Source: an uncultured Bacteroidota bacterium (GTDB taxonomy: Bacteria > Bacteroidota > Bacteroidia > Bacteroidales > VadinHA17). Taken from it: a DNA stretch of 48,843 nt. This document shows, piece by piece, positions 2,618 through 40,751 of the stretch. The notes beneath the pieces are model-generated. The model made no database searches. It was given only the letters and a program-made list of their open reading frames with translations, and was not told the origin of the DNA. Location of the stretch: contig CAIMVD010000037.1 of the NCBI GenBank assembly GCA_903844815.1, positions 1-48,843 on the forward strand, in the 5' to 3' direction. Position 1 is the stretch's first letter. Each line of letters begins with the position of its first letter. A program made the position numbers and the translations under genes.

Positions 2618-2620
2618 AAC

Positions 2621-3294: not shown

Positions 3295-3329
3295 ATTAAT
3301 TATTAATATAAATGCAGAAGCACACTTGT

Positions 3330-3569: not shown

Positions 3570-3580
3570 ATACAATTAAC

Positions 3581-4009: not shown

Positions 4010-4013
4010 CTGA

Positions 4014-11968: not shown

Positions 11969-12405
11969 CAAAATTTATAATTCTTGCTGTTTTCGGAATA
12001 GCGATGGCACATTTTGAAGGAGTTGTTGTTGTTTATCTCCGGAGGTTACTTGGCGTTCCCGATAGTGAATCAAACATGGCATCTGTCGGGAAGCTCACCC
12101 GGCAGTACCTTCGCATTGAGATGAGCCGGGAAGCAGCAACCATAATTATGCTTCTGGCAATAGGAATTCTTGCGGGAACAACCTGGATCGAAAGAGGCAT
12201 TTTCTTTCTTTGGACCTTTGCCTTCTGGGATCTTTTCTATTACCTTTCGCTCTATATTCTTATAAAATGGCCACCTAAACTGACTTCGACCGATGTGCTT
12301 TTTCTGATACCGAAGCCATGGATTGCACCGGTATGGTTTCCGGTAGCGGTTTCATCCTTTACAATTATTGCAATCTTCCTTTTGTATTTTTTAAAAGTAA
12401 TTTAA
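11962..12405 (+). CDS. Small integral membrane protein, unknown function
   Basis: A 147-residue protein with four probable transmembrane helices (about residues 3-27, 58-75, 79-101 and 120-145). It starts inside the last codons of the isomerase-like gene (seven-base overlap), so the two are probably co-translated. Notable segments are FGIAMAHFEGVVVVYLRRLLG and WTFAFWDLFYYLSLYILIKWPP. I do not recognise a family. A transporter role cannot be argued at this size. Confidence 0.7.
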   Translation: MLTKFIILAVFGIAMAHFEGVVVVYLRRLLGVPDSESNMASVGKLTRQYLRIEMSREAATIIMLLAIGILAGTTWIERGIFFLWTFAFWDLFYYLSLYILIKWPPKLTSTDVLFLIPKPWIAPVWFPVAVSSFTIIAIFLLYFLKVI

Positions 12406-12437
12406 AAATTAAGAGACTGTTTATTTGCTGTTTAGCT

Positions 12438-12536
12438 TTCTCTGTGTAACTCTGTGGCTTCTCCGTGTCACTCTGTGTAACAAAATCAGGAACTTACACA
12501 GAGTGACACGGAGGGTTCACAGAGGGCCACAGAGGA
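12438..12536. repeat. CTCTGTGTAA hairpin repeat, copy 2
   Basis: CTCCGTGTCACTCTGTGTAA (12461-12480) pairs perfectly over 20 bases with 12494-12513, around a 13-base loop (12481-12493). Imperfect pairing extends outward through CTCTGTGTAACTCTGTGG on the left and TTCACAGAGGGCCACAGAGG on the right. It lies between two convergent genes, where it could stop transcription from both sides. It is of the same family as 131-232. Confidence 0.85.
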
Positions 12537-12559
12537 CTTCTGCAAAACTGCATTAAAAA

Positions 12560-23149: not shown

Positions 23150-24068
23150 TTAAAACAAAGTTAGTTCTTTGTTTTCTCCAATGGTCCCCTGAATAATGTT
23201 TCCGGCAAAGTCAACAGCTTTGGCCCCAAGGTCGATTAATAGTTGGTTGGCATTATTCTCATTTGCATCAGGTTTGCGGACATAGATTATCCTGTTCTTT
23301 CTTAATCCGTCTTTGACACCCGACCAAGTGCCGCCGCTATCGGAGGATTCGGCTACATAAATCTCATTCGCGAGTCCGTAAATAATTGGATTTCGGGCCA
23401 TAGCCAGTCCGGTACTCCACGGAGCCTTCGGGAAAAAAGTACTAAGCACGATGACATCCCCATCTACGATCTGCCTGTAATAGGTTTTGAATCCGGTACC
23501 AAATGTAAGTATCCCCTGTGGCAGGACAATTATACTTTGCCCTTTATATTTAATAGCTGAATCGAGCGCCTGTTTGTCGATTCCCTTAGCAAATCCGCTT
23601 ACAACAACTTTATAGTCGAGGCTTGCAAGCCTGGCGATATTATCAGTGAATTCGAGGGAAATATCACTTGCGCTTCTCGATCCGACAATTGCTATTGACT
23701 TTTCACTCAATATTTGTTTGTTGCCCTTAATATAAATGACTGCCGGAGAATATTGGGTTTTCAGATTCTCTTTAAGTGTTTTTGAATACTCAGGTGAGAT
23801 TATCGGGATAACCTCATAACCCTGATTGAAGAGAGATTCTGCAAGAAAGGAATTGTTCGCAATTTCTGACTTAGCACTGGTAAGATCTTCAATCTCCTTG
23901 TCATTCATTAAAAAAAAAATTCTTCCAGTCTCCTTTGGGAAGCTGAAAGAACTCTTCCAGACTGATTTTTTGTTCATGGAAGAATTTAATTATAAGATTG
24001 TTTATCCTTTCATTCCTCCAGCCCGGAAGATGTGACAAGGTTATCCAGTATGCAGCATCATTAATCAT
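23150..24068 (-). pseudogene. DprA/Smf-like protein, frameshifted at a T10/A10 run
   Basis: Two frames together make one DprA-like protein of about 305 residues. Frame one starts at 24068 (MINDAAYWITLSHLPGWRN) and runs to a T10 run on the coding strand (A10 at 23910-23919), where it ends in WKNFFFNE. The other frame (open from 23977, stop at 23150) continues after the run with LMNDKEIEDLTSAKSEI, then IYIKGNKQILSEKSIAIVGSRSAS, VVVSGFAKGIDKQALDSA and the DprA Rossmann core. Removing one T joins them as KNFFLMNDKEIED. The start overlaps the RecQ stop. The lesion may be a true frameshift, a sequencing error, or transcriptional slippage. DprA proteins bind single-stranded DNA and load RecA; this divergent version may instead serve defence or repair with RecQ. 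Confidence 0.82.
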
Positions 24069-26079
24069 GCAGATCTCCTCCAATTGTTTTCGCAATTACA
24101 AGCGGGGCAATATTCGCCGCCCCTAAATTAGTTAAATATCTCCCAATCTCCTTAATTGTAGCTCCGCTGTCGAAAACATCATCGATCAAAAGAATTTTTT
24201 TGCCACGAATATTTTCCGGGTTATTATATGAGAACGCATCTCTTACATTATCTGTTTTCAGACAGCTGTTTTCAAAGATCTTCTGCTCTGCTGTTTTCCT
24301 GCACTTAACCAGCTCGTGTGATATTGGTATCTTAAGTGTTCCCGACAATTTTACTGCAAAATTCCTTACAAGGTCGCCTGAAATTGTTGGCGGCACGCAT
24401 ATAATTATGTCAAATTTTTCCTGACCGAACCTTTTCCGGAAGGCCCGTAGCGTCTGGATTAAAAGAAAATCGGGGAATTCACCCCCGTTTTCATATTTCG
24501 ATCGATGAATGGCATTTCCAACATTTGACACACCATAAAATGATGAAGCGACTCCATTTACTATTTTCGATTTTGCTGACTCTACATCCAGGAGAGGGAA
24601 ATAGTCTCCTCTGAAATCTTCAAGTTTTTTCAACAATACCGGATCTTCTGTTATTCTGATTTTTTCCAGTCCTGTATTATCACAGTTTGAATATTCAGTA
24701 TTTGTAGAATCCCCAAGGAAACGACACAGGAATTTCATTCGCGACTCTCTGGTTTCAACATAATCAATCATCTTGTCAAGTTCCGAAGTTTTCAAAGCCC
24801 TCAGTTGTTCAAACACACTGGTGTCAAGTTTTGGTGCTCCCGGGATATATTCAAATTTCTTACTACGTCCGTATAATGCTTCCCTGATTATTCCCTGTTC
24901 CATCAGATCCGACTTAATGACTCTTACAGGGGTCTGTTTTAAGTTGGTCTTGCGCATCAGGTCTTTTTCACCGAGAGGTTCATGACGGATTGCTGCCATC
25001 ACCTGCTCATATTTTCTGGCGGAAGGTCTGCCTCCTTCAATAAACGAAACAGGAAGACTTTTATCCTCCGGATTGTAGAAAAGGATAATATCTGCGGGTA
25101 ACCCATCTCTCCCAGCCCTGCCGATTTCCTGATAATAATGGATTGGCGACTGAGGGATCTGAGTGTGAATTATAAATCTTATATCAGGTTTGTCGATTCC
25201 CATGCCGAGTGCATTTGTTGATATGATACACTTCCACCTGTTTTCTTTTAATCCTTTTTCGGTTTCTACCCTTGTGGCTGCATCCAGACCAGCGCTATAT
25301 GAGGTCGACGGTATTTTAAGGTATTCGAACCACTTTGAATAAATTTCAGTATTTACCCTTGTCCCGGTATAGATGATTCCCGATCCTTCATTGTTTAATA
25401 AATATTTGCCAAGCCAAATCATTTTCTCATCTTCGTTTCGGACCTTAACAACATATAATCTTAAATTCTCTCTAAGTAACCTGCCTCTGATAATCGTTAT
25501 CCCACCTCCGATCTGGCTGGCGACGTCATTTTCAACACGCGTTGTCGCGGTCGCGGTTGTTGCAATAACAGGCAATCCCTTTGGCAACAGTTTTACCAGG
25601 TTGATTATCCTCCTGAACGAAGGTCTGAAATCGTGACCCCAAACAGAGATGCAATGTGCCTCATCGACAACGATCAAAGATATTTTCAGGGTTCTTGCTG
25701 CTTCGGTCCAATCGCTGTTATCCTGTCGTTCAGGAGCTATGTAAAGTATTTTAATTGCTCCTGATTTTGCCCTTTCAATTACTGACAGATTTTCCCCGGT
25801 TGTCTGATTGCTGTTAATGCATTCAGCGCTGACTCCAAGGGATTTCAGTTTATTAACCTGGTCGCGCATGAGGGCAATCAAGGGTGAAAAGACAACAGTT
25901 ATCCCAGGTAAAATCACTGAAGGGAACTGAAAACAAAGCGATTTCCCGTAGCCTGTTTTTTCAATGAGCAATACTCTTTCGCCTTTGAGAAGTAATTGGA
26001 TAACATCCCATTGCTCATCGTAAAACCTGTCGATCCCGAATCTGTTCCTTAATAATATTTCAGCTTCTTCACGGGTCAT
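24061..26079 (-). CDS. RecQ-family helicase fused to phosphoribosyltransferase domain
   Basis: A 672-residue protein. The SF2 RecQ helicase fills the first 350 residues or so: FYDEQWDVIQLLLKGERVLLIEKTGYGKSLCFQFPS (motifs 0 and I), VVDEAHCISVWGHDFRPSF (motif II, DEAH), ATTATATTRVENDV (III) and YYQEIGRAGRDG (VI). A winged-helix-like middle follows. The C terminus (about 540-672) is a type I phosphoribosyltransferase domain related to ComF, with FDIIICVPPTISGDLVRNFA and the PRPP loop KKILLIDDVFDSGATIKEIG. RecQ zinc-binding and HRDC domains are not evident. The DprA-like gene overlaps its stop codon. ComF-type and DprA domains both occur in DNA-uptake pathways, so a role in handling foreign or single-stranded DNA is plausible. 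Confidence 0.88.
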   Translation of the reverse strand: MTREEAEILLRNRFGIDRFYDEQWDVIQLLLKGERVLLIEKTGYGKSLCFQFPSVILPGITVVFSPLIALMRDQVNKLKSLGVSAECINSNQTTGENLSVIERAKSGAIKILYIAPERQDNSDWTEAARTLKISLIVVDEAHCISVWGHDFRPSFRRIINLVKLLPKGLPVIATTATATTRVENDVASQIGGGITIIRGRLLRENLRLYVVKVRNEDEKMIWLGKYLLNNEGSGIIYTGTRVNTEIYSKWFEYLKIPSTSYSAGLDAATRVETEKGLKENRWKCIISTNALGMGIDKPDIRFIIHTQIPQSPIHYYQEIGRAGRDGLPADIILFYNPEDKSLPVSFIEGGRPSARKYEQVMAAIRHEPLGEKDLMRKTNLKQTPVRVIKSDLMEQGIIREALYGRSKKFEYIPGAPKLDTSVFEQLRALKTSELDKMIDYVETRESRMKFLCRFLGDSTNTEYSNCDNTGLEKIRITEDPVLLKKLEDFRGDYFPLLDVESAKSKIVNGVASSFYGVSNVGNAIHRSKYENGGEFPDFLLIQTLRAFRKRFGQEKFDIIICVPPTISGDLVRNFAVKLSGTLKIPISHELVKCRKTAEQKIFENSCLKTDNVRDAFSYNNPENIRGKKILLIDDVFDSGATIKEIGRYLTNLGAANIAPLVIAKTIGGDLHD

Positions 26080-27009: not shown

Positions 27010-28026
27010 TTATACTTGTTCATTGATATACAGTTCAAGCATCCCCTTTATTCGTTTATTAAACATATTTCTTATTTCGAGGGGAGCTAATATTTCAACC
27101 TGCTCCCCGAATGACAAGATCAGACTCTCAAATTCATAGTTGGGCACTATAGTGATCTCAATAATTGTAAATTCCGGACTTTCGTGAATTACCTTCTGGG
27201 AATTATGCAGAGGCTTGGTTATTATATAGGGCGCGACAGCCGGGAGGAGTTTTATTTCTATTCTCTCCGGAGCCATGCCTGCAACTACCGAAACTCCGAT
27301 TACATCATCAAAATAATTGTCCGGATCTATGAAGGAATTTTCAATCCATGCAGCATCTGATTTCTCTGCGTTAACAATCCTGTCAAGTGCATAGCTGCTG
27401 ATGCCACAATAGGTTTCATTATATCCGAATACAAACCATCTGTTACGGTACTCTTTTAAAAGGTACGGATGTAAGATTTCAGACTTCTCTGCCTTTGCTT
27501 TGAATGACTTATAAGTAAGTCTTAAAGGCCTGCTATTTCCAATGCATTCTGATAGTAACGGAATCCATTCGGTGCCCTTTACCATGGGATTTGTTTCGAA
27601 CTGTATAAGAGCTTTCCTTTGCTTCTGCAGGTTAACTGATCCCTGAATTTTATAAGGTATTCTTTTCAGTTCTTCAAAATGAGGAAGATCCTTAAATTGT
27701 TTAAGTATGTTTAATGCTTCATCAAGGGCTTCAACATCAGATTGCGACAAGGGATTATGGTCGATTGAGAACCCGGGATCTTCATAATAGATATACCCGT
27801 TGCGCCTTATAATAGGAGCATTATATCCGGTTGGCGGCAGTTTCCTCATAATATGGATATCTTCTGCCAGCTGCCTTGGACTTATTCCTTTAACAATATC
27901 AAATTCTTCCGATAGTTTTTCCGATACACGTTCCAGAAGGTCAGTAAATGTCCATCTTCTGGCGGTGTTCCTCAGACATTCGTTGATAACCCTGTACCTG
28001 AAACTTGCATTTTTATTTAACGGCAT
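27010..28026 (-). CDS. WYL-domain transcriptional regulator
   Basis: A 338-residue regulator: an N-terminal winged helix (residues about 1-90, YRVINECLRNTARRWTFTDLLERV), a linker, then a WYL domain (about 150-240, LRLTYKSFKAKAEKSEILHPYLLKEYRNRWFVFGYN) and a C-terminal WCX-like extension. WYL proteins sense a ligand, probably nucleic acid or nucleotide, and several control phage-defence loci such as BREX and CBASS. I choose the ATG at 28026 because the frame upstream to 28095 would overlap the intergenic inverted repeat. It is divergent from the methylase-kinase operon over 67 bases that contain that repeat, so it probably regulates both itself and the operon. Confidence 0.88.
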   Translation of the reverse strand: MPLNKNASFRYRVINECLRNTARRWTFTDLLERVSEKLSEEFDIVKGISPRQLAEDIHIMRKLPPTGYNAPIIRRNGYIYYEDPGFSIDHNPLSQSDVEALDEALNILKQFKDLPHFEELKRIPYKIQGSVNLQKQRKALIQFETNPMVKGTEWIPLLSECIGNSRPLRLTYKSFKAKAEKSEILHPYLLKEYRNRWFVFGYNETYCGISSYALDRIVNAEKSDAAWIENSFIDPDNYFDDVIGVSVVAGMAPERIEIKLLPAVAPYIITKPLHNSQKVIHESPEFTIIEITIVPNYEFESLILSFGEQVEILAPLEIRNMFNKRIKGMLELYINEQV

Positions 28027-28052
28027 ATAGTTTCTTTCAAAGTTCTTAATAA

Positions 28053-28073
28053 AAATGCAGATTGACTGCATTT
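28053..28073. promoter_or_regulatory. Inverted repeat, candidate WYL operator
   Basis: AAATGCAG (28053-28060), spacer ATTGA, CTGCATTT (28066-28073) is a perfect 8+8-base inverted repeat centred between the divergent starts at 28026 and 28094. Symmetry, size and position are those expected for a dimeric regulator; assignment to the WYL protein is inference. Confidence 0.6.
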
Positions 28074-28093
28074 GTGTGTATTTTATTTGCATC

Positions 28094-28414
28094 ATGAATT
28101 TATTTGAAAAAAGTTACAGGACAATATGTACAAGAGGAGTTGTCTTCTCAAAGGCCCAGATGGAAAACCTGCGGATCAGGAAAATTTTCAATTCAGCAGG
28201 GATTACGGATTATTTAAATGATGAAAAGGCATTTGAGATGTTGGAGAATTTTAATAAAAGGGGTGAATTTTGCCTGCTTGAAACAACCGATAACGGGAAG
28301 ATCTATAAGATCAGCCTTATCACTTTTGAGGATATCTGGAGCAGGAATTTGTTTGCCCTTATGTACTTTGATTATTATGAAGGATTCCCTGACCTGATTT
28401 CACTCTATAACTGA
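28094..28414 (+). CDS. Small protein of unknown function, first in methylase-kinase operon
   Basis: A 106-residue acidic, soluble protein (MNLFEKSYRTICTRGVVFSK ... IWSRNLFALMYFDYYEGFPD). I do not recognise a family. No membrane segment, zinc motif or obvious catalytic signature is visible. The ATG at 28094 is preferred; an upstream ATG at 28055 would lie inside the inverted repeat. It ends 47 bases before the methylase-kinase start, in the same direction, and probably belongs to that transcription unit. It could be a small regulator or accessory component of the R-M locus. Confidence 0.65.
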   Translation: MNLFEKSYRTICTRGVVFSKAQMENLRIRKIFNSAGITDYLNDEKAFEMLENFNKRGEFCLLETTDNGKIYKISLITFEDIWSRNLFALMYFDYYEGFPDLISLYN

Positions 28415-28461: not shown

Positions 28462-31440
28462 ATGAAATTGTTAAATTTATTCGGAAAAAAACCACAACAA
28501 AATATGACCCTTCACGAAGCCATAGAAAAGATACTTAAAGAGGCTGGTAAACCTTTGGCACCCGGGGTCATTGCAGATTTGGTAAATAGTGGAAGTTTAT
28601 ATGTCAGGGACGATAATACTCCTGTTCCTCCTTTGCAGATTGAAGCCAGAATAAAAAAATATCCCCTTAGGTTTACATTGACCTCTGAAGGTTTAATTAC
28701 TCTGGCTGAAAACCGGAAGGATTCTTTCAATGATATTGTCTTATCGGTTTTTGATATTTTAAGGGGTACTAATGTTGCCGATGTAAACTACTTTATCTCC
28801 TCATTATTTTTTTATAAGAGAGCTCTTGATTATCCGGGGATGTTAAATAAATATGAGCTTGAAATAGCTCCGCCTGACGAAAGTCTGTCCGAAACTCAAA
28901 GATTCAGATCTTTTTATAAACTGCTGAAAGTTGAATTAGAGAAGAGGGGTAAAAAATTTGATATAACAGTGCTCGATATACTTTTCCGTGATCAGCATGA
29001 TCATCCCGGATTAAGAATATCGGCTATTGATAAAGCACTCAGAACTCTTGAAAACATTTCCCTGGATAAAGAAACATATTCTGTAAATGAATTCGGGAAA
29101 AAATTTTCGGACCTCTTTAAAAGATCCTATGTCAGTGTCAATAAAATAGGTGAGTTTTCCACTCCAAATTCCCTGGCTGAGCTCATTGTATTGCTGGCAG
29201 AAGATAAACCAGGATCTGTGTTCTACAATCCTGCAGGAGGCTATTTCAGTTTTTCTGTTGAATTAAAAAGAAGGTCAAGGAATATCAACACCTTTTATTC
29301 TGAGGAGATTAATGTCCGCACTTTTTCCCTCGGTTTAATGAATCTTATGGCCAGCGGAGCCTCAATTGAGCACGCATTTAATGTTGATTCTATTTCTTCT
29401 TCCAAAATAATGGATGGCACAGCCGATGTTGTTATCAGCAATCCTCCATTTGGAAGGAAATATATTTATGATGATTATGAACATAATTACCCATTTAGAT
29501 CGTCATCAATTGTTCCCTATTTTCTTTACCTGGCACTGAGGAAAGCAAAGCCGGGAGGTTTCGTAGTAATGGTTGTTCCTGAAAGTATTCTTTACGAAAA
29601 CAGCAGTGGAGTATTCTCATTTCGTAAACATCTTATCGGGAACCATCTTGTTGAATCGGTGATCTCCCTTCCATCCGGAGTCTTTGAACCATATTCAGGA
29701 GTTAAATTGAGTATTATCATACTTCAAAAAGATGGAAATAGTAAGGGAATCCTATTCTTTGACGCGGATAGGAGTGAGTATCTTACTAAAAAAAGTAAAA
29801 GAGAATTAGTCCTTAATTCGGAAAGTGTTTTTAATCAGTATCTGAAGCTTAGATCAAATCAGGAATCAAATTCAGATATTTTAAAAAAAACTGAATCTTC
29901 TGAAAATCCTGATTCATCAGTCGTAATGGACAATTATGTTGAATATGGACCTTCTCTCAGGAGTTATAACTTCGCAGATTATAAGGAGGTTATTGTTAAT
30001 GATTTTAACCTGGAAGTAAAAAGATATTTATATGATGAGCACGATCATCAGGGTTCAGAAATCGGAGAGGAAGGGTCTGTTGAATTAAGTACCTTTTTGA
30101 ACCCATTTCATGCAAAAGGTAGTGCAGAGGAGAATGAGGATTTGAAGTACTATAATATTTCAAAACTGAACTCCGATTTTACCAGAATTAAAATTGAAGA
30201 TTCCGATAAGTCATCTCTTAGCGGGAAGCACCGGGGCCGGATAATCGATAAAACAACCCTGCTTGTCGGTGCCATTGAAGGTTCTCTTAAACCTACAATC
30301 TTCGAATATAATGGAAGAAATATTTTAATTTCTAATGATGTCCTGGCATTTTTTCCTGATTTTACTAAAGTCGACCCGGAATATCTTGTTTATGAGCTGG
30401 CGGGACCAGGTTTTCAGCAACAGGTCAGGTTGTTTACCCAGGGTGTGACTATCAGAAGAATTAAAAGCAAAGATTTTCTCAGGATCAGGGTTTATCTTCC
30501 GTCGCTTCCCGAACAGCGAAAAATTGTAAGAACAAAGAAGGACGCTTTTCTCCTCGCCAAAAACCAGGAGAGCCTTAACCTTTCATCCAGGCTCAATATT
30601 CCCGCCGATAGTGAAAGGGAAATTATGGGAGCCCTTAAACATGAACTGGCGCCCCTGGCCAGTATAATGAAGGGAGGAATAAAGTCGATAAGCAGGTATC
30701 TTACTTCAAAGATTGAGAATGAAGAGACGGTGGAATTTACTGAGAAAATATCCGGGGCGGAAAATTCAAGGACTCTTGGACAACTATTAAGCGATTTGGA
30801 GAGAAGCGCCGATGAACTAACTCAGCTTTCAGAAAATATCCAGCAGATAATCGATGTTAACAGCCAGGAGCTAAAGACCGAATATGTTGAGATAAAAAAG
30901 TTAATTGGCGGAGTTGTTAATAACTGGGAATTCAGAGATAAATATAATATTGTTTTCCATGGCGAATCACAATCGGCACCCGATGTGAAAGCAAGTATTA
31001 GCAGGAAACAGTTTTCAATATTTGTCAGGAACTTCCTTGAAAATACTCACCGGCACGGATATCTAAACAGATATGAACCCTATGATTTGTCAGCTCTTAC
31101 CGGTCCTTCAAGAAACCTGGTCTTTAATGCTTTCAAACAGGAGGGATCAGTGATTATTGAGATGAAAAATGATGGCGATCCCTTCCCTGAAGATTTCAGT
31201 TTCGATGATTTTGTGAGTTTCGGAGGACGTGGAGGAAGCGCAAAGGGAACGGGTATAGGAGGATTTCTGATGAAGAGGATAATTCAGAACCATAATGGGG
31301 AGCTGTTAATGCTCGAACCGGGTGAATCACTGGATATTCAACTTACTTCTAAAACCCATGATAACAGAGTATTTCCTTTTCGCCAGATGGTGGTGGGCGT
31401 TTCTTTAAGAATTATTTTACCCGATAAAAACTTATCCTAA
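28462..31440 (+). CDS. Winged-helix / N6-adenine methylase / specificity / histidine-kinase fusion
   Basis: A 992-residue protein joining parts that are normally separate. Residues 15-84 look like a HARE-HTH winged helix (NMTLHEAIEKILKEAGKPLAP). Residues about 210-450 are an HsdM-like N6-adenine methylase: SVFYNPAGGYFSF is SAM motif I and VVISNPPFGRKY holds catalytic NPPF (327-330). Residues about 534-690 resemble an HsdS half-subunit and end VYLPSLPEQRKIV. Residues about 720-800 form a HisKA-like coiled coil with phosphoacceptor His727 (ALKHELAPLASIM). Residues 850-980 are a HATPase: FVRNFLENTHRHG (N box), KNDGDPF (G1), GGRGGSAKGTGIGGFLMKRI (G2). I start at the ATG at 28462; TTG at 28429 would add eleven residues. 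The receiver gene overlaps its stop by one base. The kinase may phosphorylate it in response to DNA engagement; this is inference. Confidence 0.85.
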   Translation: MKLLNLFGKKPQQNMTLHEAIEKILKEAGKPLAPGVIADLVNSGSLYVRDDNTPVPPLQIEARIKKYPLRFTLTSEGLITLAENRKDSFNDIVLSVFDILRGTNVADVNYFISSLFFYKRALDYPGMLNKYELEIAPPDESLSETQRFRSFYKLLKVELEKRGKKFDITVLDILFRDQHDHPGLRISAIDKALRTLENISLDKETYSVNEFGKKFSDLFKRSYVSVNKIGEFSTPNSLAELIVLLAEDKPGSVFYNPAGGYFSFSVELKRRSRNINTFYSEEINVRTFSLGLMNLMASGASIEHAFNVDSISSSKIMDGTADVVISNPPFGRKYIYDDYEHNYPFRSSSIVPYFLYLALRKAKPGGFVVMVVPESILYENSSGVFSFRKHLIGNHLVESVISLPSGVFEPYSGVKLSIIILQKDGNSKGILFFDADRSEYLTKKSKRELVLNSESVFNQYLKLRSNQESNSDILKKTESSENPDSSVVMDNYVEYGPSLRSYNFADYKEVIVNDFNLEVKRYLYDEHDHQGSEIGEEGSVELSTFLNPFHAKGSAEENEDLKYYNISKLNSDFTRIKIEDSDKSSLSGKHRGRIIDKTTLLVGAIEGSLKPTIFEYNGRNILISNDVLAFFPDFTKVDPEYLVYELAGPGFQQQVRLFTQGVTIRRIKSKDFLRIRVYLPSLPEQRKIVRTKKDAFLLAKNQESLNLSSRLNIPADSEREIMGALKHELAPLASIMKGGIKSISRYLTSKIENEETVEFTEKISGAENSRTLGQLLSDLERSADELTQLSENIQQIIDVNSQELKTEYVEIKKLIGGVVNNWEFRDKYNIVFHGESQSAPDVKASISRKQFSIFVRNFLENTHRHGYLNRYEPYDLSALTGPSRNLVFNAFKQEGSVIIEMKNDGDPFPEDFSFDDFVSFGGRGGSAKGTGIGGFLMKRIIQNHNGELLMLEPGESLDIQLTSKTHDNRVFPFRQMVVGVSLRIILPDKNLS

Positions 31441-32351
31441 TGCCAAAATCCGAATATAGAATTCTTATTGTAGATGATGACAAGTCTTATGCCCAGATTT
31501 GGATTGAAAGAGCTTTTGATGATCATTTAATTGACCTGATCCATTATATTGACTGGGAAAGTGCCCAAACTCAGCTGAAAGCTAACCCTGATAAATTTCA
31601 GGCAATAATCCTTGATGCAAAGGGTAAACTTACAACGGATGATGCTTCAGAAAGCATGAAGCATGTAATAAAAGCATTGCAGGACCTTAAAGAACTTGAA
31701 GGACACGGGCTCTTTTTTCCTTATGTAATTAATACCGGTTTTATTGATGATTCAGTAATAGGCTTGCTGGAAGAGGTTAAAATCTTCTCCAAAGGAAATG
31801 AAGATGCATTGTTCAAATACCTGATTGATAAGATTAAGTGCTCTCCTTACGACAAGTTAAGGAAAAATAATAATATAATTTTCTCATTGTTCGATGAAGG
31901 TTACCTTCCTCCACAATCAGGACGAAAATTATTGGATGTTTTGATTTTTGCTGAGCATCCTGCATGGAACAAAGCTACCGATGACTTCTTTAACCCGGTA
32001 AGGAAAATCCTTGAGGGCATTTTATGGAAATTAAAGGAATTGGGAAAAATCGATAAAAGGTGTTTTTCTGAAGAAAGAATTAATCTGAAAGACTGTATTG
32101 AATATATTGCGGGATACAGGGCAGGACGTGATCGGTTTCAATTTTCCGGCAATAAAATAATCCCAACACATATATACAATTCGCTGAATCATATTTATAA
32201 CATGACAGGCACATTCTCACATGATTACCTCGAGAAAACAGAGGTGAGTCATTATGCACTGCAAAGTGTTGTGTATGCGTTGTGCGAAGTACTGTACTGG
32301 TTCAGGGATTTTATAAATTTGGAGGCAAATAAAACTAACACCAAAAAATAA
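31440..32351 (+). CDS. Receiver-domain protein with C-terminal DUF4145-like helical domain
   Basis: A 303-residue protein. The first 130 residues are a response-regulator receiver domain: acidic triad ILIVDDDKSY (12-14), phosphoacceptor Asp59 in AIILDAKGK, Thr99 in VINTGF and Lys118 in IFSKGN. The rest (about 155-295) is helical and has no DNA-binding helix-turn-helix. Its end, NHIYNMTGTFSH (250-261) then AL ... YWF (287-288), resembles the GN-x-AAH ... LAWF part of the DUF4145-type domain at the N terminus of HsdR at 37316. The start shares one base with the kinase stop, so the pair is surely co-expressed. Likely output is protein contact rather than transcription. Confidence 0.85.
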   Translation: MPKSEYRILIVDDDKSYAQIWIERAFDDHLIDLIHYIDWESAQTQLKANPDKFQAIILDAKGKLTTDDASESMKHVIKALQDLKELEGHGLFFPYVINTGFIDDSVIGLLEEVKIFSKGNEDALFKYLIDKIKCSPYDKLRKNNNIIFSLFDEGYLPPQSGRKLLDVLIFAEHPAWNKATDDFFNPVRKILEGILWKLKELGKIDKRCFSEERINLKDCIEYIAGYRAGRDRFQFSGNKIIPTHIYNSLNHIYNMTGTFSHDYLEKTEVSHYALQSVVYALCEVLYWFRDFINLEANKTNTKK

Positions 32352-32413: not shown

Positions 32414-32492
32414 AGGATATAACCTTAAATGTATTTGCATATTTAATATTATAACCTTAAATTTGACAATAATAATTAAGGATATAACCTTA
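32414..32492 (+). promoter_or_regulatory. Repeated ATAACCTTA motifs before mobile mystery A
   Basis: Three ATAACCTTA-type motifs precede the gene: AGGATATAACCTTAAAT (32414-32430), TATAACCTTAAAT (about 32450-32463) and AAGGATATAACCTTA (32478-32492), the last running into the ATG. AGGATATAACCT is a near-palindrome. They look like operator repeats for autoregulation by the XRE-type protein encoded next. Confidence 0.55.
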
Positions 32493-32956
32493 TGAATATT
32501 TCAAAACAAAGATTACTTATTGAACAAGCCGACAAAAAATTAGCTGTTTTTAAACCTTTGAGTTCAGTTATAATACCTCAAAGAGGATGGATACACACTA
32601 TAAGGGTTGCCTTAAAAATGTCGTTACGGCAATTAGGTAGCAGATTAGAAATTTCACCCCAAAGTGTAAAAGAGATTGAGGAGCGTGAAGCAAATGGTTC
32701 TCTTACAATTAAGGGGCTTAGGGAAGTAGGAGCAGTACTAGACATGAAACTTATTTATGGGTTTATTCCAAAAGGACAAGGCATTGAAGAAATGATTGAA
32801 AAAAGGGCGATAGAAATCGCAACAGATATTGTAATGAGAACTTCGAACACAATGCAGCTCGAGGATCAGGAGAATTCAAAGGTACGTTTGGAAAAAGCAA
32901 TAAAAAACAGGGCAGAAGAAATCAAAACAAAAATGCCAAAATACTTATGGGAATAG
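32492..32956 (+). CDS. Mobile mystery protein A (XRE-type regulator)
   Basis: A 154-residue DNA-binding protein. After an N-terminal part (QRLLIEQADKKLAVFKPLSS) comes an XRE-type helix-turn-helix, WIHTIRVALKMSLRQLGSRLEISPQSVKEIEEREANGSLTIKGLREVGAVLDMKLIYGFIP (about residues 33-93), matching the family called mobile mystery protein A. The tail is basic and helical. It overlaps by ten bases the Fic-like partner, the invariant arrangement of this pair. It probably represses its own promoter through the ATAACCTTA repeats and acts as the antitoxin-like member. Confidence 0.9.
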   Translation: MNISKQRLLIEQADKKLAVFKPLSSVIIPQRGWIHTIRVALKMSLRQLGSRLEISPQSVKEIEEREANGSLTIKGLREVGAVLDMKLIYGFIPKGQGIEEMIEKRAIEIATDIVMRTSNTMQLEDQENSKVRLEKAIKNRAEEIKTKMPKYLWE

Positions 32957-33570
32957 AAATTGAATATATTGAAGGGCAGACACCCTTGGATGAGGACGAG
33001 AAAGAAGGATTATTGATAAAATCAGTTACAACCCGTGGTGAATTAGATGAATTTGAACAGTTAAATATTGAAAAAGCTATAGAGTGGACTCTGGGTAAAA
33101 AATGGAAATCTGAGTTTATCCTATCAGAAAATTTTATCAGAGAACTTCATAAAAGAATGTTTAATGAGGTATGGTCCTGGGCTGGTGATTTCAGAAAGTC
33201 AAATAAGAATATTGGAGTAGACAAGTATCAAATCGGAACCTCTTTAAAGCAGTTAATAGATGACAGTTTGTTTTGGTTAAAGAACAAGACATATTCCGAA
33301 GAGGAATTTGCTCTAAGATTCAAACACAGAATTGTAAATATTCATTGTTTCCCGAATGGGAACGGCAGACATTCAAGATTAGTAGCAGATATTATTATTA
33401 GTCAGATATTCGGAAAACCAGTATTTTCCTGGAGCAATTCAAATTTAAATAAAAAGGGAGAAGCAAGATCTGCTTATTTGACCGCAATAAGGCAGGCAGA
33501 TTCAGGGGATATTAAGCCTTTAATTGATTTTGCTAAATTGTCTGTCACAAAACATAATCGTTTATCGTAG
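32947..33570 (+). CDS. Mobile mystery protein B (Fic-domain protein)
   Basis: A 207-residue Fic/DOC-family protein. The catalytic motif reads HCFPNGNGRHSR (about residues 136-147), equivalent to HPFxDGNGR with Cys in place of Pro and Asn in place of Asp or Glu; the essential His and the anion-binding GNGR loop are kept. The acidic metal-binding residue is missing, so activity may be altered. Fic proteins transfer AMP or another nucleotide to target proteins. FEQLNIEKAIEWTLGKKWKSEFILSENFI and MFNEVWSWAGDFRKSNKNIGVD fit the mobile mystery protein B family. It is a toxin-like partner of the XRE protein, inserted between the receiver gene and hsdM. Confidence 0.9.
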   Translation: MGIEIEYIEGQTPLDEDEKEGLLIKSVTTRGELDEFEQLNIEKAIEWTLGKKWKSEFILSENFIRELHKRMFNEVWSWAGDFRKSNKNIGVDKYQIGTSLKQLIDDSLFWLKNKTYSEEEFALRFKHRIVNIHCFPNGNGRHSRLVADIIISQIFGKPVFSWSNSNLNKKGEARSAYLTAIRQADSGDIKPLIDFAKLSVTKHNRLS

Positions 33571-33620: not shown

Positions 33621-35102
33621 ATGCTCACAGGCGAACTACGAAACAGGGTTGACAAGGTTTGGGAAGCTTTCTGGACAGGCGGGATAGCCAACCCTCTTAC
33701 TGTTATCGAACAGATAACCTACCTCCTCTTTATTAAACGTCTCGATGAACTCGAGACACGCGAGGAACTAAAGACAAATATGCTTGGTGGAATACCGGGC
33801 AGGAAGTATTTTAAAGAAGATCAGCAGGAACTCCGCTGGAGCAAATTCAAAAACTTCGCTCCTGAAAAGATGTACAAAATCTTTTCAAGCGACGAAGGTG
33901 TCTTTGCCCTGATGAAAAACCTGGGAACTGAAAACGGATCATCATATTCCAAATACCTGAAGGGCGCTACCTTTATGATCCCGACTCCCAGCCTCCTCGA
34001 CAAAGTTGTTGGTATGATATCGGAGATCCCAATGGATGATCTGGATACCAAGGGCGACCTCTACGAATACCTTCTCTCGAAGATCGCTACTGCCGGACAA
34101 AACGGCCAGTTCCGAACCCCACGGCATATAATTAAGATGATGGTTGAACTGATGGAGCCAAAGGAGGATGATGTCGTCTGCGATCCCGCAGCAGGTTCAT
34201 GCGGGTTCCTGGTGGCAGTAAGCGAGTATTTCAGGGAACATAAACCCGACCTGATGCACAAACAATCATTCCGCGACCATTACAATACCAGAATGTTCAA
34301 CGGCAATGAGTTTGACGCTACAATGATCCGCATCGGAGCCATGAACATGCTGCTTCACGGTATTGAAAATCCGAATCTCGATGACAAGGACTCCCTTTCC
34401 GAATCGAATGCCGGCATGAAGGATAAATACACCCTGGTCCTGGCAAATCCACCCTTTAAAGGCTCCCTCGATTATGAAAGCGTTGAAAGCGGGCTCTTAA
34501 AGATAGTAAAGACTAAAAAGACAGAGCTTCTTTTCCTTGCCCTGATGCTCAGATCTTTAAAAATCGGAGGCAGGTGTGCAGTTATTGTACCGGATGGTGT
34601 TTTATTCGGTTCTTCTAATGCCCATAAAGCCCTCCGGCAGGAGATCATTGACCGCCACCAGCTCGAAGGTGTTATCTCAATGCCCTCTGGTGTGTTTAAA
34701 CCCTATGCAGGAGTTTCAACTGCCATACTGATCTTTACAAAAACCGGCAAGGGAGGCACTTCTGATGTCTGGTTTTATGACATGACAGCCGATGGTTATA
34801 GCCTCGATGACAAGAGGCAAAAGATTGAAACCGATAATATTCCTGATATTATCAAAAGTTGGCACGACAGACATAAAGTTCAGGAAAGAAAAAGAAGCGG
34901 AAAATCATTCTTTGTGAGTGCAGAAGAAATCAGAAAAAATGGATTTGATCTTTCAATTAACCGATTCAAAGAAGTCCAATATGAAGAGATAAAATATGAT
35001 TCTCCAAGAGAAATAATATTTGGGAAAAATGGATCTCCTGGTATAAAGCAGCTGACGGAAGAACAACTTTTGTTAATTGAAGAACTTAATAGTCTTTTAT
35101 GA
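33621..35102 (+). CDS. hsdM: Type I restriction-modification methylase subunit HsdM
   Basis: A 493-residue N6-adenine methyltransferase subunit. The HsdM N-terminal helical domain (LRNRVDKVWEAFWTGGIANPLTVIEQITYLLFIKRLDE) is followed by the methylase core: GQFRTPRHIIKMMVELMEPKEDDVVCDPAAGSCGFLVA (SAM motif I, about residues 170-195) and YTLVLANPPFKGSL (catalytic NPPF, about 275). The C terminus includes SMPSGVFKPYAGVSTAILIF. It overlaps hsdS by four bases. Together with two HsdS-bound copies it methylates the recognition site, and with HsdR it restricts. It is a second, separate methylase from the kinase-fused one upstream, only distantly similar in sequence. Confidence 0.96.
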   Translation: MLTGELRNRVDKVWEAFWTGGIANPLTVIEQITYLLFIKRLDELETREELKTNMLGGIPGRKYFKEDQQELRWSKFKNFAPEKMYKIFSSDEGVFALMKNLGTENGSSYSKYLKGATFMIPTPSLLDKVVGMISEIPMDDLDTKGDLYEYLLSKIATAGQNGQFRTPRHIIKMMVELMEPKEDDVVCDPAAGSCGFLVAVSEYFREHKPDLMHKQSFRDHYNTRMFNGNEFDATMIRIGAMNMLLHGIENPNLDDKDSLSESNAGMKDKYTLVLANPPFKGSLDYESVESGLLKIVKTKKTELLFLALMLRSLKIGGRCAVIVPDGVLFGSSNAHKALRQEIIDRHQLEGVISMPSGVFKPYAGVSTAILIFTKTGKGGTSDVWFYDMTADGYSLDDKRQKIETDNIPDIIKSWHDRHKVQERKRSGKSFFVSAEEIRKNGFDLSINRFKEVQYEEIKYDSPREIIFGKNGSPGIKQLTEEQLLLIEELNSLL

Positions 35103-36289
35103 AGGTTAACTTGCCAGTTATACAAACCATCGAAAAACCTGTAAGTGGGGAATGGGGAATTGAACCATCGGGAGGTCAGATAATAAAAGTTCTCAGGAAC
35201 ACAAATTTCAATAATGATGGGAGTCTGAATTTGAAAGATGTTGTTGAAAGGGAGATAGTCAGTGCCAAAATTTCAAGTAAGAAGCTAAAATATGGAGATA
35301 TCTTAATTGAAAAATCAGGTGGTAGTCCAAATCAACCTGTGGGAAGGGTAGTTTTCTTTGATGGAACAGGAGAGGATTATTTGTTCAGTAATTTTACTTC
35401 AGCATTAAGACCCAAAAAAGATATTTTCCCAAAGTATTTATTTTATTTATTGTATGGAAATCATTTGTTTAAAAGGACTTTGTCATATCAGAATAAAACT
35501 ACAGGAATCTTAAACCTGCAGCTTGAAAGGTATCTTAAAGAATCAATAATTCCTGTTCCTTCATTTGAAGACCAGCAACGCATCGCCACCATCCTCGATC
35601 ATGCCGATTCAATCCGCCGAAAAAACCGGCAGATACTCGAAAAATACAACGAACTGGCACAAAGCGTGTTTTATGAGATGTTTGGGGATCCGATCAAGAA
35701 TACTTTTAATTATCAAATCATTACTTTAAAAGAGGCATGCTACTCAATAAAAGATGGGCCACATCTCTCTCCAAAATATGTTGAAAGAGGGATTCCTTTT
35801 ATATCTGTGAATAACATTATTAAAGGCTTTTGGGACTTCTCAAATTTAAAATTCATATCCCAAAGGGATCATGAACTATTTAACAAGAAGTGCAACCCTC
35901 GGAAAGGAGATATTTTGTATTCTAAAGGGGGGACAACTGGTTTCGCAAAATACATTGACATAGACCTTGAATTCTCAAATTGGGTTCACCTTGCTGTTTT
36001 AAAATTTGATAGAGAAAAAATTAATGGTCGATTTCTAGAATCTATGTTAAATAGTCCATATTGTTATAGTCAGTCCCAATTATTAACTAGAGGAATTGCA
36101 AACCGAGACTTAGTTTTAGGTCAGATGGCAAAAATTAAATTACTCTCTCCTCCAATAGAACTTCAAAAGAAGTTTTCTGACATAAATGAAAACATTGAAA
36201 ACCAAAAGGTATATGTGAAACAGTGTCTTCAAAAAAGCGAAGACCTGTTTCAGAGTTTGCTGCAGAGGGCGTTCAGGGGAGAGCTTTGA
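35099..36289 (+). CDS. hsdS: Type I restriction-modification specificity subunit HsdS
   Basis: A 396-residue DNA-recognition subunit. Two target-recognition domains (residues about 10-155 and 205-360) are each followed by a conserved helical spacer: the central one is DQQRIATILDHADSIRRKNRQILEKYNELAQSVFYEMFGDP (about 160-198), the C-terminal one KKFSDINENIENQKVYVKQCLQKSEDLFQSLLQRAFRGEL. The TRDs are visibly more A+T-rich than hsdM and than the spacer, as is usual for exchangeable specificity cassettes. The start overlaps the hsdM stop (ATGA). The recognised DNA sequence cannot be predicted by reading. Confidence 0.94.
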   Translation: MKVNLPVIQTIEKPVSGEWGIEPSGGQIIKVLRNTNFNNDGSLNLKDVVEREIVSAKISSKKLKYGDILIEKSGGSPNQPVGRVVFFDGTGEDYLFSNFTSALRPKKDIFPKYLFYLLYGNHLFKRTLSYQNKTTGILNLQLERYLKESIIPVPSFEDQQRIATILDHADSIRRKNRQILEKYNELAQSVFYEMFGDPIKNTFNYQIITLKEACYSIKDGPHLSPKYVERGIPFISVNNIIKGFWDFSNLKFISQRDHELFNKKCNPRKGDILYSKGGTTGFAKYIDIDLEFSNWVHLAVLKFDREKINGRFLESMLNSPYCYSQSQLLTRGIANRDLVLGQMAKIKLLSPPIELQKKFSDINENIENQKVYVKQCLQKSEDLFQSLLQRAFRGEL

Positions 36290-37315: not shown

Positions 37316-40210
37316 ATGGCAAACACTAACTTCCGGTTTCTTGAGTCTGAATGGCCGGAGCTATTCAAATATGCTGTCAAAGCCGAAAGCATGTGTCTCC
37401 CGGAGCCGGATGTGTCGGCCCTGTTCTGCAGGATAACTCTCGAGAAGGCCATCCACTGGATGTTTGAAAATGACCCGGACCTTGAAATGCCATATGATAC
37501 CTCGCTGGCTAACCTCATGAATAACTGGGCTTTCGGAAACAGGCTCCCCGGGCAGATCCGCGATTCACTTCACCTTGTCCGAAAAATAGGTAACCTGGCT
37601 GCCCACGGTCAGGAGATTGCAAAGAAGCAGTCGGAACAGGCACTTTTGATACTATACGACTTCCTTGCCTGGTTCAACGGCGCTTACGGCAAGATAGAAT
37701 TCAAAAAGCCCAGGTTTAACTTTTCCCTGATCTCTGAAATTATACCCACTTCGGTCCAGCTTTCGGAAGATAAAAACCTCCTGAAAGCCCAGATGGAGGA
37801 ACTTTCGAAGCGGGAGTTGGAACTATCATCGGTCAGGAGCAGGATAGACGAGCTGAAAAAGGAGAATGAGGCTCTTTCGGAACAGATCCGAAACCGGAGG
37901 AAAGCAGTAACCGAAACAGGCCCTGTATCATATAGCGAGGAGGAGACCCGAAAACTTCTGATCGACCTTACAATTGCCGAGGCAGGCTGGAAGATCCATA
38001 ATAATACTGGTCATAAAAGCCAATGCGTAAGGGAGTATCCTGTTACGGGAATGCCTAATGAAACAGGTTATGGATTTGTCGACTATGTTCTGTGGGGGGA
38101 GAACGGTTTACCGCTTGCAGTTATCGAAGCAAAGAAAACAATCCACAATCCCGAGAAGGGCAAACACCAGGCTGAACTTTATGCCGATTGCCTTGAAAAA
38201 GCAACAGGGCAACGACCTGTAATATTTTATACCAACGGTTTTGAAACAAGGATCTGGGATGATACATTTTATCCCCCGCGAAAGATTTACGGTTTCTATT
38301 CGAGAGATGAACTACAACTGGCTGTCGGCAGGCGGACTGAACGACAGGATATTCGTACAATCCCTGTAAACAGGAGCATTTCAGAGAGGTACTATCAGGT
38401 TGAAGCCATCCGCAGGGTTACGGAACATTTCTGTGCTGACAGAAAACCAACCGGTATCTCAGGGTCATACAGAAGAGCCCTTCTTGTTATGGCTACCGGC
38501 TCGGGGAAGACACGAAATATTATTGCCCTCGTGGATATTCTCGTAAAAGCCGGCTGGGTTTCTAAAGTTCTCTTCCTGGCCGATCGTAATGCACTTGTCA
38601 AACAAGCCAAGGATGCCTTTAATGAGCATCTCCCTTCCTTATCTACTGTCAATCTCTGTAAAAACAAGGAAGAGAAGAACAACAGGATTGTGCTCTCGAC
38701 CTATCCAACAATGCTGAACCTCATTGATTCTGCGAGGAACGATGAGGGAAGGTTCTATACTCCCGGCCATTTTGACCTGATAATTATTGATGAGGCGCAT
38801 CGTTCCGTTTATCAGAAGTACGGTGCAATATTCGACTATTTTGATTCACTGCTCGTTGGCCTGACAGCTACACCAAAGGACGAGGTTGATCGTGACACAT
38901 ACAAGCTGTTTGAGTTGCCAAAATATGACCCGACCTATTACTATTCACTCGAGCAGGCAGTAAAGGATAAGTTTCTGGTGCCTCCTGTTGCTATGAGCGT
39001 CCCGCTGAAGTTTGTCAGGGAAGGAATTAAATATCATGATCTTGCCGAGGAGGAAAAATCGGAATATGAAGATCTGTTTTATGATGAAGAGACCGGCTAT
39101 ATGCCCGACGAGATTGGAGCAAGCTCCTTAAACGCCTGGTTGTTCAATGCCGATACAGTACGCAAAGTCCTGGCACATCTGTTTAAGCACGGCTTAAAAG
39201 TCGAAGGAGGCGATAAGCTTGGAAAGACTATAATCTTTGCAAAGAACCATAAGCATGCAGAGTACGTTCAGAAATTGTTCTATAAAGAGTTCCCGGGTTA
39301 TGGAGGGGCTTTCCTCGACGTTATAGACAATTATGCAGATTATTCACAGGATCTTATTGACAGGTTCAAGGACAGCGCTAAGTTTCCCCAGGTCGCCGTA
39401 TCGGTCGATATGCTCGATACAGGTATAGATGTTCCTGAGATAGTAAACCTGGTATTCTTCAAACCGGTTCGCTCATATTCAAAGTTCTGGCAGATGATTG
39501 GACGGGGAACCAGGTTATGTAAGGGATTATTCGGTCCGGGGAATGATAAGAAGAACTTTTACATTTTCGATCTATGTGAGAACTTTGAGTTTTTTGAAAC
39601 AGTCATTAATCAAAAAGACTCAGGGATTACTGAGAGTATAAGTCAGAGGATATTCACCCGGCGGCTCCGGATGCTTCAGGCAATAGCTGTTATGGACAAT
39701 TATGATTATGAGAAACATGCACCATTCAGGGAACTGCTTCTCAATCACATACAATTAGAGATCAGCAGGATTGATCCAGAGAGTTTCATAGTAAAACCAT
39801 ATATGAAGCAGCTTCTGGCATACAGAAACAGGGATAAACTGAATAATCTCAACGATCACGAAATTGAAGAGATTGAACAGACCCTCGTGCAATTATTGCA
39901 GCCTGTGGAGGGCGATGAGCCGGCAAGGCGGTTTGACCTTCTGATGGTGAACCTGATGCATGCAAAAATAAGCAGATTGCCATCGGAAGCAAGGTTGACA
40001 GATGAACTTGCAGGAATAGCCCGGGAACTCCTTAAGAAGAAAAACATAAAAGATATCGCCTTGAAAGAGTCAATCATCAAACCACTCATTGACAGGGAAT
40101 ATCTGAGATCACTTGATCCGGTTTCTTTGGAAAATGTCAGGATAGAGTTGCGCGATCTGGCCATTTATGCTGAAGGCAGGGGCAGGAAACATAGTTTATT
40201 CCGATTTTGA
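37316..40210 (+). CDS. hsdR: Type I restriction subunit HsdR, frameshifted before C-terminal domain
   Basis: A 964-codon frame covering most of HsdR. Residues 1-125 are a DUF4145-like domain (HLVRKIGNLAAHGQ, about 84-97), followed by a coiled coil (about 155-200). The nuclease domain has GYGFVDYVLWGENGLPLAVIEAKK (PD-ExK type, about 250-273). The SF2 translocase carries MATGSGKTRN (Walker A, about 391), IIIDEAHRS (II), LTATPKDE (III) and QMIGRGTRLC (VI). The frame ends RGRKHSLFRF without the C-terminal assembly domain; that domain is encoded in the next frame (40167-40751). A single-base difference near 40185 would join them. Restriction activity is doubtful unless the frames are really continuous. 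Confidence 0.9.
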   Translation: MANTNFRFLESEWPELFKYAVKAESMCLPEPDVSALFCRITLEKAIHWMFENDPDLEMPYDTSLANLMNNWAFGNRLPGQIRDSLHLVRKIGNLAAHGQEIAKKQSEQALLILYDFLAWFNGAYGKIEFKKPRFNFSLISEIIPTSVQLSEDKNLLKAQMEELSKRELELSSVRSRIDELKKENEALSEQIRNRRKAVTETGPVSYSEEETRKLLIDLTIAEAGWKIHNNTGHKSQCVREYPVTGMPNETGYGFVDYVLWGENGLPLAVIEAKKTIHNPEKGKHQAELYADCLEKATGQRPVIFYTNGFETRIWDDTFYPPRKIYGFYSRDELQLAVGRRTERQDIRTIPVNRSISERYYQVEAIRRVTEHFCADRKPTGISGSYRRALLVMATGSGKTRNIIALVDILVKAGWVSKVLFLADRNALVKQAKDAFNEHLPSLSTVNLCKNKEEKNNRIVLSTYPTMLNLIDSARNDEGRFYTPGHFDLIIIDEAHRSVYQKYGAIFDYFDSLLVGLTATPKDEVDRDTYKLFELPKYDPTYYYSLEQAVKDKFLVPPVAMSVPLKFVREGIKYHDLAEEEKSEYEDLFYDEETGYMPDEIGASSLNAWLFNADTVRKVLAHLFKHGLKVEGGDKLGKTIIFAKNHKHAEYVQKLFYKEFPGYGGAFLDVIDNYADYSQDLIDRFKDSAKFPQVAVSVDMLDTGIDVPEIVNLVFFKPVRSYSKFWQMIGRGTRLCKGLFGPGNDKKNFYIFDLCENFEFFETVINQKDSGITESISQRIFTRRLRMLQAIAVMDNYDYEKHAPFRELLLNHIQLEISRIDPESFIVKPYMKQLLAYRNRDKLNNLNDHEIEEIEQTLVQLLQPVEGDEPARRFDLLMVNLMHAKISRLPSEARLTDELAGIARELLKKKNIKDIALKESIIKPLIDREYLRSLDPVSLENVRIELRDLAIYAEGRGRKHSLFRF

Positions 40211-40751
40211 GGATTATCTCGATGAAGGAGGAGTTGGATTTAAAGATATCATTAAGCCTTACGAGGACATGGAGGCATACAGGTTCAGGGTAGAACATTT
40301 TTTGAAGGAGCATATTAATCATCTGACGATTTCCAAGCTTAGGACAAATAAGCCACTCACTTCTGATGAACTTAACGAATTGGAGAGGCTGATATTTGAT
40401 CAGGGTGCGTTGGGAACAAAGGAAAAGTTCCAGGAAGCCTTTGGAGTCGATCATCCTATTTCGTTTTTCGTCAGGAAGATTGTCGGTCTTGATTCATTTG
40501 CTGCGAAACAGGAGTTCTCAGAACTATTGGGAGCCGTTCCCATTTCAGCCACCCAGATCAAATTCATCAACAAACTGATCGATCATCTGACTATCAATGG
40601 AATAATTGAGAAGGCGATGCTTGTCCAGCCGCCATTCACGGATATTAATGATAAAGGAGTATTTGGCGTATTTTCAGATGATCAGGTAGGAAAGATCGTG
40701 TCGATAATTGACAGGATAAATGGAAATGCGGAGAGGGTGATGGTGGGGTGA
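40167..40751 (+). pseudogene. hsdR: HsdR C-terminal domain fragment, second frame
   Basis: This frame encodes the EcoEI-type HsdR C-terminal domain: NIVYSDFEDYLDEGG, then ALGTKEKFQEAFGVDHPISFFVRKIVGLD and FINKLIDHLTINGIIEKAMLVQPPFTD ... VFGVFSDDQVGKIVSII. It is in the +1 frame relative to 37316-40210. Taking out one base in GGGGCAGGAAACATAG (about 40176-40191) gives a smooth join through NIVYSDFED. Homology begins before any natural start; the first ATG at 40167 is still within the overlap and is probably fortuitous. It is therefore a frame fragment, not a separate gene. Confidence 0.85.

Follow-up and report, generated by a model that had tools for sequence, protein, structure and literature searches.

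A degenerate type I methylase fused to a histidine kinase and paired with a receiver gene: a putative sensor module beside restriction systems in Bacteroidota

Why should a DNA methylase end in a histidine kinase, and why should a receiver gene follow it beside a restriction system? Restriction-modification (R-M) is usually pictured as constitutive. In a contig of 48,843 nucleotides from an uncultured Bacteroidota bacterium (CAIMVD010000037.1, analysed whole and called the window below), one gene joins an HsdM-like methylase region, a single HsdS-like specificity half and a histidine-kinase core, and is followed by a receiver gene and a type I hsdM, hsdS and hsdR (Table 1). Here we present an analysis of this fusion, its receiver and their relatives in other genomes. 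The kinase-receiver pair is a recurrent module, and on balance we lean, from the sequences, towards reading it as a soluble kinase whose sensor input is a pseudo-methylase and which would regulate the neighbouring restriction system through the receiver.

The two genes lie where a preliminary description, made from the letters of the window, had placed them. The fusion frame opens at TTG 28429 or ATG 28462 and ends at 31440; judged by eye, ATG 28504 (MTLHEAI) is a possible later start, since several relatives start there. Its TAA stop and the ATG of the receiver share one base (TAATG), which suggests that the translation of kinase and receiver is coupled. The HsdM-like methylase and the specificity-like region described earlier are both borne out by Pfam (N6_Mtase 2.5e-34, Methylase_S 3.3e-5), while the winged helix described with them is weak: HARE-HTH reaches a marginal 0.02 in the fusion, under the Pfam cut-off, and winged-helix matches occur in 2 of 12 family members, the best at 4e-5. 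The preliminary description knew of no restriction or defence system with this fusion, and among the Pfam, PADLOC and NCBIfam models scanned none covers it as a whole. Against the MAD2/MAD5 models of MADS (cut-off 720) the fusion scores 18.6 bits and the window HsdM 93.0, and the window HsdS scores 60.1 against a cut-off of 400.

The genomes sampled for relatives were all Bacteroidota. A whole-protein search of 296 of them gave matches in 195, mostly to the methylase part, and a smaller set reached the specificity-plus-kinase half, and profiles built from this half (A3, A4) told the members apart. Their scores are 5.3e-42 or better across most of the profile, the exception being a truncated fragment, G457 (1.9e-29), and non-member matches range from 1.1e-23 to 9e-16 and begin at profile position 131 or later. 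Five overlapping genome samples yielded 9 members in 295 genomes (sampled by class, fragment included), 12 in 395 (by phylum; a thirteenth match, G066, is kinase-only), 8 in 128, 6 in 299 and 7 in 198. The total is 33 loci including the window: one in each of 32 genomes, and one on the plasmid pFM-G13 of Myroides odoratimimus, where the fusion is annotated as an N-6 DNA methylase and the receiver as a hypothetical protein. A plasmid search with the L035 sequence covered at least 80% of the query in three records, all from Myroides, and queries with the window, L032 or L036 sequences found none so covered. Relatives were not found in phages and viral contigs, which says little, since a family this divergent is poorly caught by the patterns and queries used, and one genome-contig scan gave only an ordinary Kordia HsdM. 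The family looks old, since most pairs among 16 members are only 17-27% identical in the C-terminal half (a few 30-46%).

Is the C-terminal part really a histidine kinase? Taken singly, the proteins give weak domain calls: HATPase_c is matched by 15 of 16 members at E up to 1, with a best value of 2e-10, and HisKA by one of the 16 (0.091). At the level of the family these calls become firm in the alignments. A profile of the C-terminal half, built from 16 relatives, matches the solved kinases 3a0r (5.3e-15), 4u7n (1.3e-12) and 2c2a (2e-12), which we take to be ThkA, WalK and HK853, and it also matches a solved HsdS (Table 1). The invariant histidine of the family aligns with the H-box histidine of 4u7n (NVSHELRTPL). 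His727 and the N-box, G1 and G2 residues Asn861, Asn903, Gly905, Gly931 and Gly933, the kinase core picked out in the preliminary description, are invariant in 32 of 32 fusions (these counts leave out fragment L056), and His865 is kept in 30. G1 in a kinase is usually D-x-G and in the fusion it is N-x-G, a form that would also suit a MORC/paraMORC-type GHKL ATPase remodelling DNA rather than a signalling kinase; the solved kinase 3a0r likewise has N-S-G there. GHKL ATPases are known in R-M operons, according to the accessible part of one report (PMC2292703). We nevertheless regard such an ATPase as highly improbable: the phospho-acceptor histidine is invariant and H-box-aligned, a co-varying receiver gene adjoins at every locus, the PDB matches in the kinase region are annotated kinases bar two marginal ones (ribosomal S6, RsgI), and no S5-type partner domain is listed in the Pfam scans of family members.

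In each of the 33 loci the gene that follows the kinase, on its own strand, is the receiver; with mechanically chosen starts of the open reading frames (ORFs), the spacing runs from an overlap of 44 bases to a gap of 17. Kinase and receiver distances correlate with r 0.80 over 30 loci (0 of 2000 permutations; L052, L056 and L057 left out) and with r 0.85 over the 15 loci where HsdM and WYL genes are present as well. There r is 0.30 for kinase and WYL (11 of 2000 permutations), 0.12 for kinase and HsdM (198 of 2000) and 0.04 for pseudo-methylase and HsdM (729 of 2000); all these values are rough, because such large distances are near saturation. At L033 and L052 the HsdMs are 91% identical and the fusions 35%. 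Judged by these distances, kinase and receiver look like partners, and the R-M system like a neighbour that is exchanged.

A link of the pair to restriction genes, as proposed earlier, is found across the family. Neither outcome that the preliminary description had named as fatal to its idea came about: sensitive searches do bring out the kinase domains (HisKA only as the one weak match given above), and homologues are linked to the receiver and to R-M genes. An hsdM lies nearby at 25 of the 33 loci, within five ORFs downstream at 23 and within four upstream at two more; with about 2 hsdM per about 3500 genes in a genome, a rough estimate puts chance linkage below 1%. An hsdS lies downstream at 23 loci, HsdR is recognised within the stretch at nine with a narrow profile, and a WYL gene stands within three ORFs upstream at 20 (14 on the same strand and 6 divergent, as in the window). 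Loci without hsdM within these limits have other neighbours: McrBC genes at L057, which supports the sensor-kinase reading; AAA_15, PLD-like and UvrD genes at L036; HsdR and a RecD-like helicase upstream at L038; and a C5 methylase farther away at L067. The module is thus found beside more than one restriction type. Along L057 (2438-6686) the order is the receiver with its Schlafen AlbA_2 domain, an AAA_5 gene and then the McrBC gene.

What, then, does the kinase sense? The preliminary description had the kinase sense methylation state or foreign DNA. Taken to mean an active methylase-kinase that reads whether the sites of the R-M system are methylated, the idea would be suited by the N6_Mtase match, the NPPF of motif IV in the window and the linkage to hsdMS. 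Two lines of evidence make it very unlikely. The first is the state of the catalytic motifs. With the sequences aligned to EcoKI HsdM, motif I (DPxxG[ST]) and motif IV ([NDS]PP[YFW]) are both intact in 0 of 32 fusions and in 22 of 23 companion HsdMs; the fusions keep motif I in 4 cases and motif IV in 8, and the companions in 23 and 22, although motif I is hard to align with confidence in the rows that diverge most. The sole exception among the companions, L070, has its hsdM in two frames (11574-13175), one of which carries motif I and the second NPPF. Since the two motifs are never intact together, the fusion is probably not an active methylase; of the earlier methylase claim the NPPF stands, and motif I in the window is degenerate (Table 1). 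The form of the erosion differs between lineages, which would fit a domain retained for binding rather than for catalysis.

The second line is specificity. The specificity half of the fusion is most similar to the HsdS of its own locus in 0 of 24 loci, with a median rank of 9.5 (HsdS above 300 residues). In the three closest pairs of loci (L052/L053, L037/L065 and L031/L063) the HsdMs are 94, 90 and 96% identical, and the HsdS proteins, compared per 40 columns, drop to 12-50% across the target domains and reach 78-100% at conserved blocks; the recognition parts of the fusions are 96, 83 and 83% identical. In these pairs the target domains of HsdS are exchanged and the recognition part of the kinase is retained, so the fusion probably does not follow its neighbour's sites when the R-M system moves to another target. 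The other 12 pairs compared are too distant to tell, as fusion and HsdS both differ. On motif erosion and specificity decoupling together, we set aside an active methylase that senses its own sites.

The same pairs bear on a further idea. In two of the three, no part of the fusion has changed more than the pseudo-methylase core (66 and 52% identity, against 87 and 95% in the kinase), and codon identity at conserved residues of L031/L063 is 35-58% in the four lowest pseudo-methylase blocks against 86-94% in the kinase, a drop that points to recombination. Such a pattern might be expected of a receptor tracking changing ligands: the pseudo-methylase could be a decoy that mimics HsdM-HsdS and binds phage anti-restriction proteins, among which Ocr and ArdA are DNA mimics, so that the kinase signals when restriction is under attack. 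An input that retains the shape of the target enzyme and has lost catalysis would suit this role. Loss of catalysis by itself relaxes constraint, however; the third pair lacks the pattern, its core being 99% identical, and the mosaicism may be plain recombination. We hold the decoy idea to be possible but doubtful. An extension of it, which we put forward just as tentatively, is a guard receptor made from the enzyme that it guards, in which a decoy HsdM-HsdS kinase would detect anti-restriction proteins or stalled invader DNA and trigger a second response via the receiver. If so, blocked restriction would itself raise the alarm, and changing inhibitors would drive the pseudo-methylase to diversify, with the kinase-receiver core staying fixed and moving between restriction systems.

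The receiver raises its own question, which is where the signal goes. Response_reg is matched by 2 of 31 family receivers, and the window receiver has no Pfam match at all; a receiver profile matches the solved response regulator 4ja2 at 2.5e-4. All 32 receivers counted (the Schlafen-fused L057 is left out) have two of the residues named in the preliminary description, Asp59 and Lys118, and 30 of them have Asp13, but at the third residue named, Thr99, only 23 have a threonine. The conserved part that follows carries Arg188 (32 of 32), Glu192 (30), His261 (32) and Trp287 (29). No DNA-binding part is recognised in the receiver, and no Pfam, PADLOC or NCBIfam model recurs among the receivers in the library scans. 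In twelve of the 33 receivers (L033, L035, L037, L038, L041, L052, L053, L055, L056, L059, L065 and L069) the protein reaches 374-407 residues with an extra C-terminal tail; five of these were scanned singly and have no Pfam match at 0.05. An S1CSD-TOTE-2 match (0.0017) occurs in one of 31 receivers.

Could the receiver itself be the effector of an abortive response, with phosphorylation activating a toxic output domain? At L057 it is fused to Schlafen AlbA_2 (6.4e-15), in one receiver of the 33. In the others, the helical C-terminal part bears a weak resemblance to DUF4145, which is suggestive: hhalign gives 20% (E 0.0011 over 110 columns), and 0 of 200 column shuffles score as high, but a decoy comparison, with the N-terminus of the fusion, reaches 14.5% over 28 columns and exceeds it in raw score (26.3 against 25.0). 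The DUF4145 alignment had 20 rows, from 17 of 24 DUF4145 loci and 3 HsdR pieces; two loci were dropped for stops and five weak ones, L095-L099, left out. An earlier small alignment gave 5%. The HEPN motif is expected to have an arginine ahead of its histidine, and this arginine, judged by eye, is not conserved in the receivers, among which (31 scanned) Pfam gives no HEPN match. DUF4145 is itself described as a HEPN-type family in the part of the source available (PMC3710099). With the likeness weak, the motif incomplete and Schlafen confined to one locus, we think an effector receiver unlikely.

The sensor-kinase reading starts from what the sequences themselves show: the order of domains in the fusion, kinase and receiver residues that never vary, linked neighbours, methylase motifs that have eroded, and a specificity decoupled from that of HsdS. 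In the mechanism that we propose, the input of the kinase would be a repurposed, catalytically degenerate HsdM joined to one HsdS-like half. Dimers formed by the kinase helices would place a pair of pseudo-methylases and a pair of recognition halves round DNA, as in a type I methylase. The ligand would most likely be a DNA feature or a DNA-bound invasion intermediate, not the target of the neighbouring R-M system. It would turn on phosphorylation at His727 and then transfer to Asp59 of the receiver, as the invariant residues and the co-variation lead us to infer. By contact with the WYL regulator or with the restriction complex, the helical domain of the receiver would probably raise or license the neighbouring restriction system.

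Several points weigh against this reading. In the window itself motif IV is still present, and binding of S-adenosylmethionine by the fusion may persist; HATPase_c (residues 855-954) reaches only 1.4e-4 and 22.7 bits, under the cut-off of 26.4, and G1 departs from the usual form. Eight of the 33 loci lack hsdM within the limits used. Neighbours were scanned at five of them, including L072, whose single scanned neighbour is a pentapeptide-repeat protein; the other three are L039, L056 (a contig of 3.1 kb) and L071. The decoupling argument rests mainly on three close pairs, and single-sequence AlphaFold models are too poor to use (pLDDT 45.5 for the receiver and 37.8 for the kinase core).

The remaining genes of the locus are given in Table 1. 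The WYL gene is the probable transcriptional regulator of the module. The mobile mystery pair, a Fic-type pair within the R-M operon, is an insertion in the window and lies outside the recurrent module. The two hsdR frames encode 964 and 194 residues, and the L054 relative is a single frame of 1171; the split would be either a sequencing error or a broken gene; the DUF4145 at its N-terminus is the family met above in the receiver comparison. A frame of 119 residues between the WYL gene and the fusion (28055-28414) has no Pfam match above cut-off and may be a real small gene. A scan for promoters and terminators gave 17 promoter-like sites against 18.2 expected from shuffles, which is no enrichment. 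Directly upstream of the module, at 23150-26079, a DprA-like gene (DNA_processg_A 5.6e-37) and a RecQ-type helicase with a phosphoribosyltransferase domain are perhaps a second DNA-processing or defence pair, and positions 277-4712 hold what looks by eye like an arsenic-type cluster (transporter, methyltransferase, reductase and ArsR-like regulator).

Table 1. Features of the module and its neighbours, with positions in the window.
Feature	Position	Strand	Details
WYL-domain gene (WYL + WCX), divergent	27010..28095	-	Pfam WYL 1.5e-11, WCX 8.4e-10
Pseudo-methylase / specificity-half / histidine kinase fusion (putative)	28462..31440	+	992 residues; start maybe 28429 or 28504
N6_Mtase-like region of fusion	29137..30039	+	Residues 226-526; motif I degenerate (YNPAGGYFSF), motif IV NPPF at residues 327-330
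Single HsdS-like half of fusion	30121..30531	+	Residues 554-690; Methylase_S 3.3e-5; family profile against HsdS 5ybb 2.7e-17
Histidine-kinase core of fusion	30640..31323	+	His727 (codon 30640-30642) to end of HATPase_c match (residue 954)
Receiver protein	31440..32351	+	303 residues; Asp13, Asp59, Lys118, then conserved, putatively helical part (Arg188, Glu192, His261, Trp287)
Mobile mystery proteins A (HTH) and B (Fic family)	32492..33570	+	NCBIfam TIGR02612 3.1e-38, TIGR02613 2.5e-72; between receiver and hsdM
hsdM, motifs I and IV intact	33621..35102	+	Pfam N6_Mtase 2.1e-66, HsdM_N 3.9e-13
hsdS	35099..36289	+	Pfam Methylase_S 3.4e-19, two stretches
hsdR, two overlapping frames (37316-40210 and 40167-40751)	37316..40751	+	Pfam N-terminal DUF4145 5.1e-9, ResIII 9e-36, EcoEI_R_C 3.7e-23

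If the sensor-kinase reading is right, a recurrent kinase-receiver pair with a degenerate type I methylase as its input implies restriction that is gated by a signal. The module would supply a defined pseudo-enzyme sensor and add a two-component class to bacterial immunity; were the decoy idea true, bacteria would possess a counterpart of guard or decoy receptors. The recurrence of the pairing in other Bacteroidota suggests that a methylase, once broken, was put to use as an alarm receptor. Proteins annotated as N-6 DNA methylases beside R-M systems, such as the Myroides plasmid copy, may be kinases.

How does the module compare with known systems? Two-component signalling linked to restriction is already published; a sensor derived from a methylase we have not found described, and no description of a methylase-histidine kinase fusion was found among the open-access papers listed, judged from titles and the starts of abstracts. 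Type I HsdM and HsdS are homologous to the input region of the fusion, but the fusion is one chain with a single specificity half and an attached kinase, and its motifs I and IV are never both intact (32 of 32). Detocs consists of DtcA, DtcB and DtcC with an effector, and we know of no methylase input in it. The available parts of the reports describe Detocs as a defensive two-component system whose best-described case has three genes with an ATP-degrading PNP effector; it shares the two-component logic in phage defence, and differs from the module in that gene set and effector (PMC11249213, PMC10952713). The closest published idea is the HEF_HK / Response_reg_2 pair, which is two-component-like and linked mainly to type II R-M and C5 methylases; it too has adjoining kinase-like and receiver-like genes by R-M and a divergent receiver, but its kinase has HATPase_c_3, and the accessible part of the source describes no methylase or specificity input, where the module here has a type I-like one (PMC8011034). 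HEF_HK is matched by none of the family sequences scanned (12 full-length, 16 C-terminal), Response_reg_2 by none of 31 receivers, and the two models (PF19191, PF19192) have 0 matches in the genome of the window. A profile comparison with Response_reg_2 is weak in the receiver part (11%) and shows nothing in the output domain (0.06%), and on that result we set kinship aside.

Other defence loci share single parts of the module. A Schlafen RNase fused to a minimal histidine kinase stands beside BREX, and so brings together kinase and Schlafen parts as L057 does with its AlbA_2 receiver; a methylase input and a receiver are not mentioned in the available part of that report (PMC12839542). BrxR/CapW-type WYL repressors adjoin defence systems, a setting that the WYL gene of the module resembles, though it is tied to a kinase-receiver pair (PMC12255303, from the part available), and a kinase-regulator pair is reported to act through CRISPR-Cas (PMC8523701). 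An eroded methylase in a defence protein also has a precedent: DndH keeps an inactive DNA methylase, judged on the same motifs in the accessible part of the source, and joins it to nuclease and ATPase parts, whereas the module joins its own to a histidine kinase (PMC10853773).

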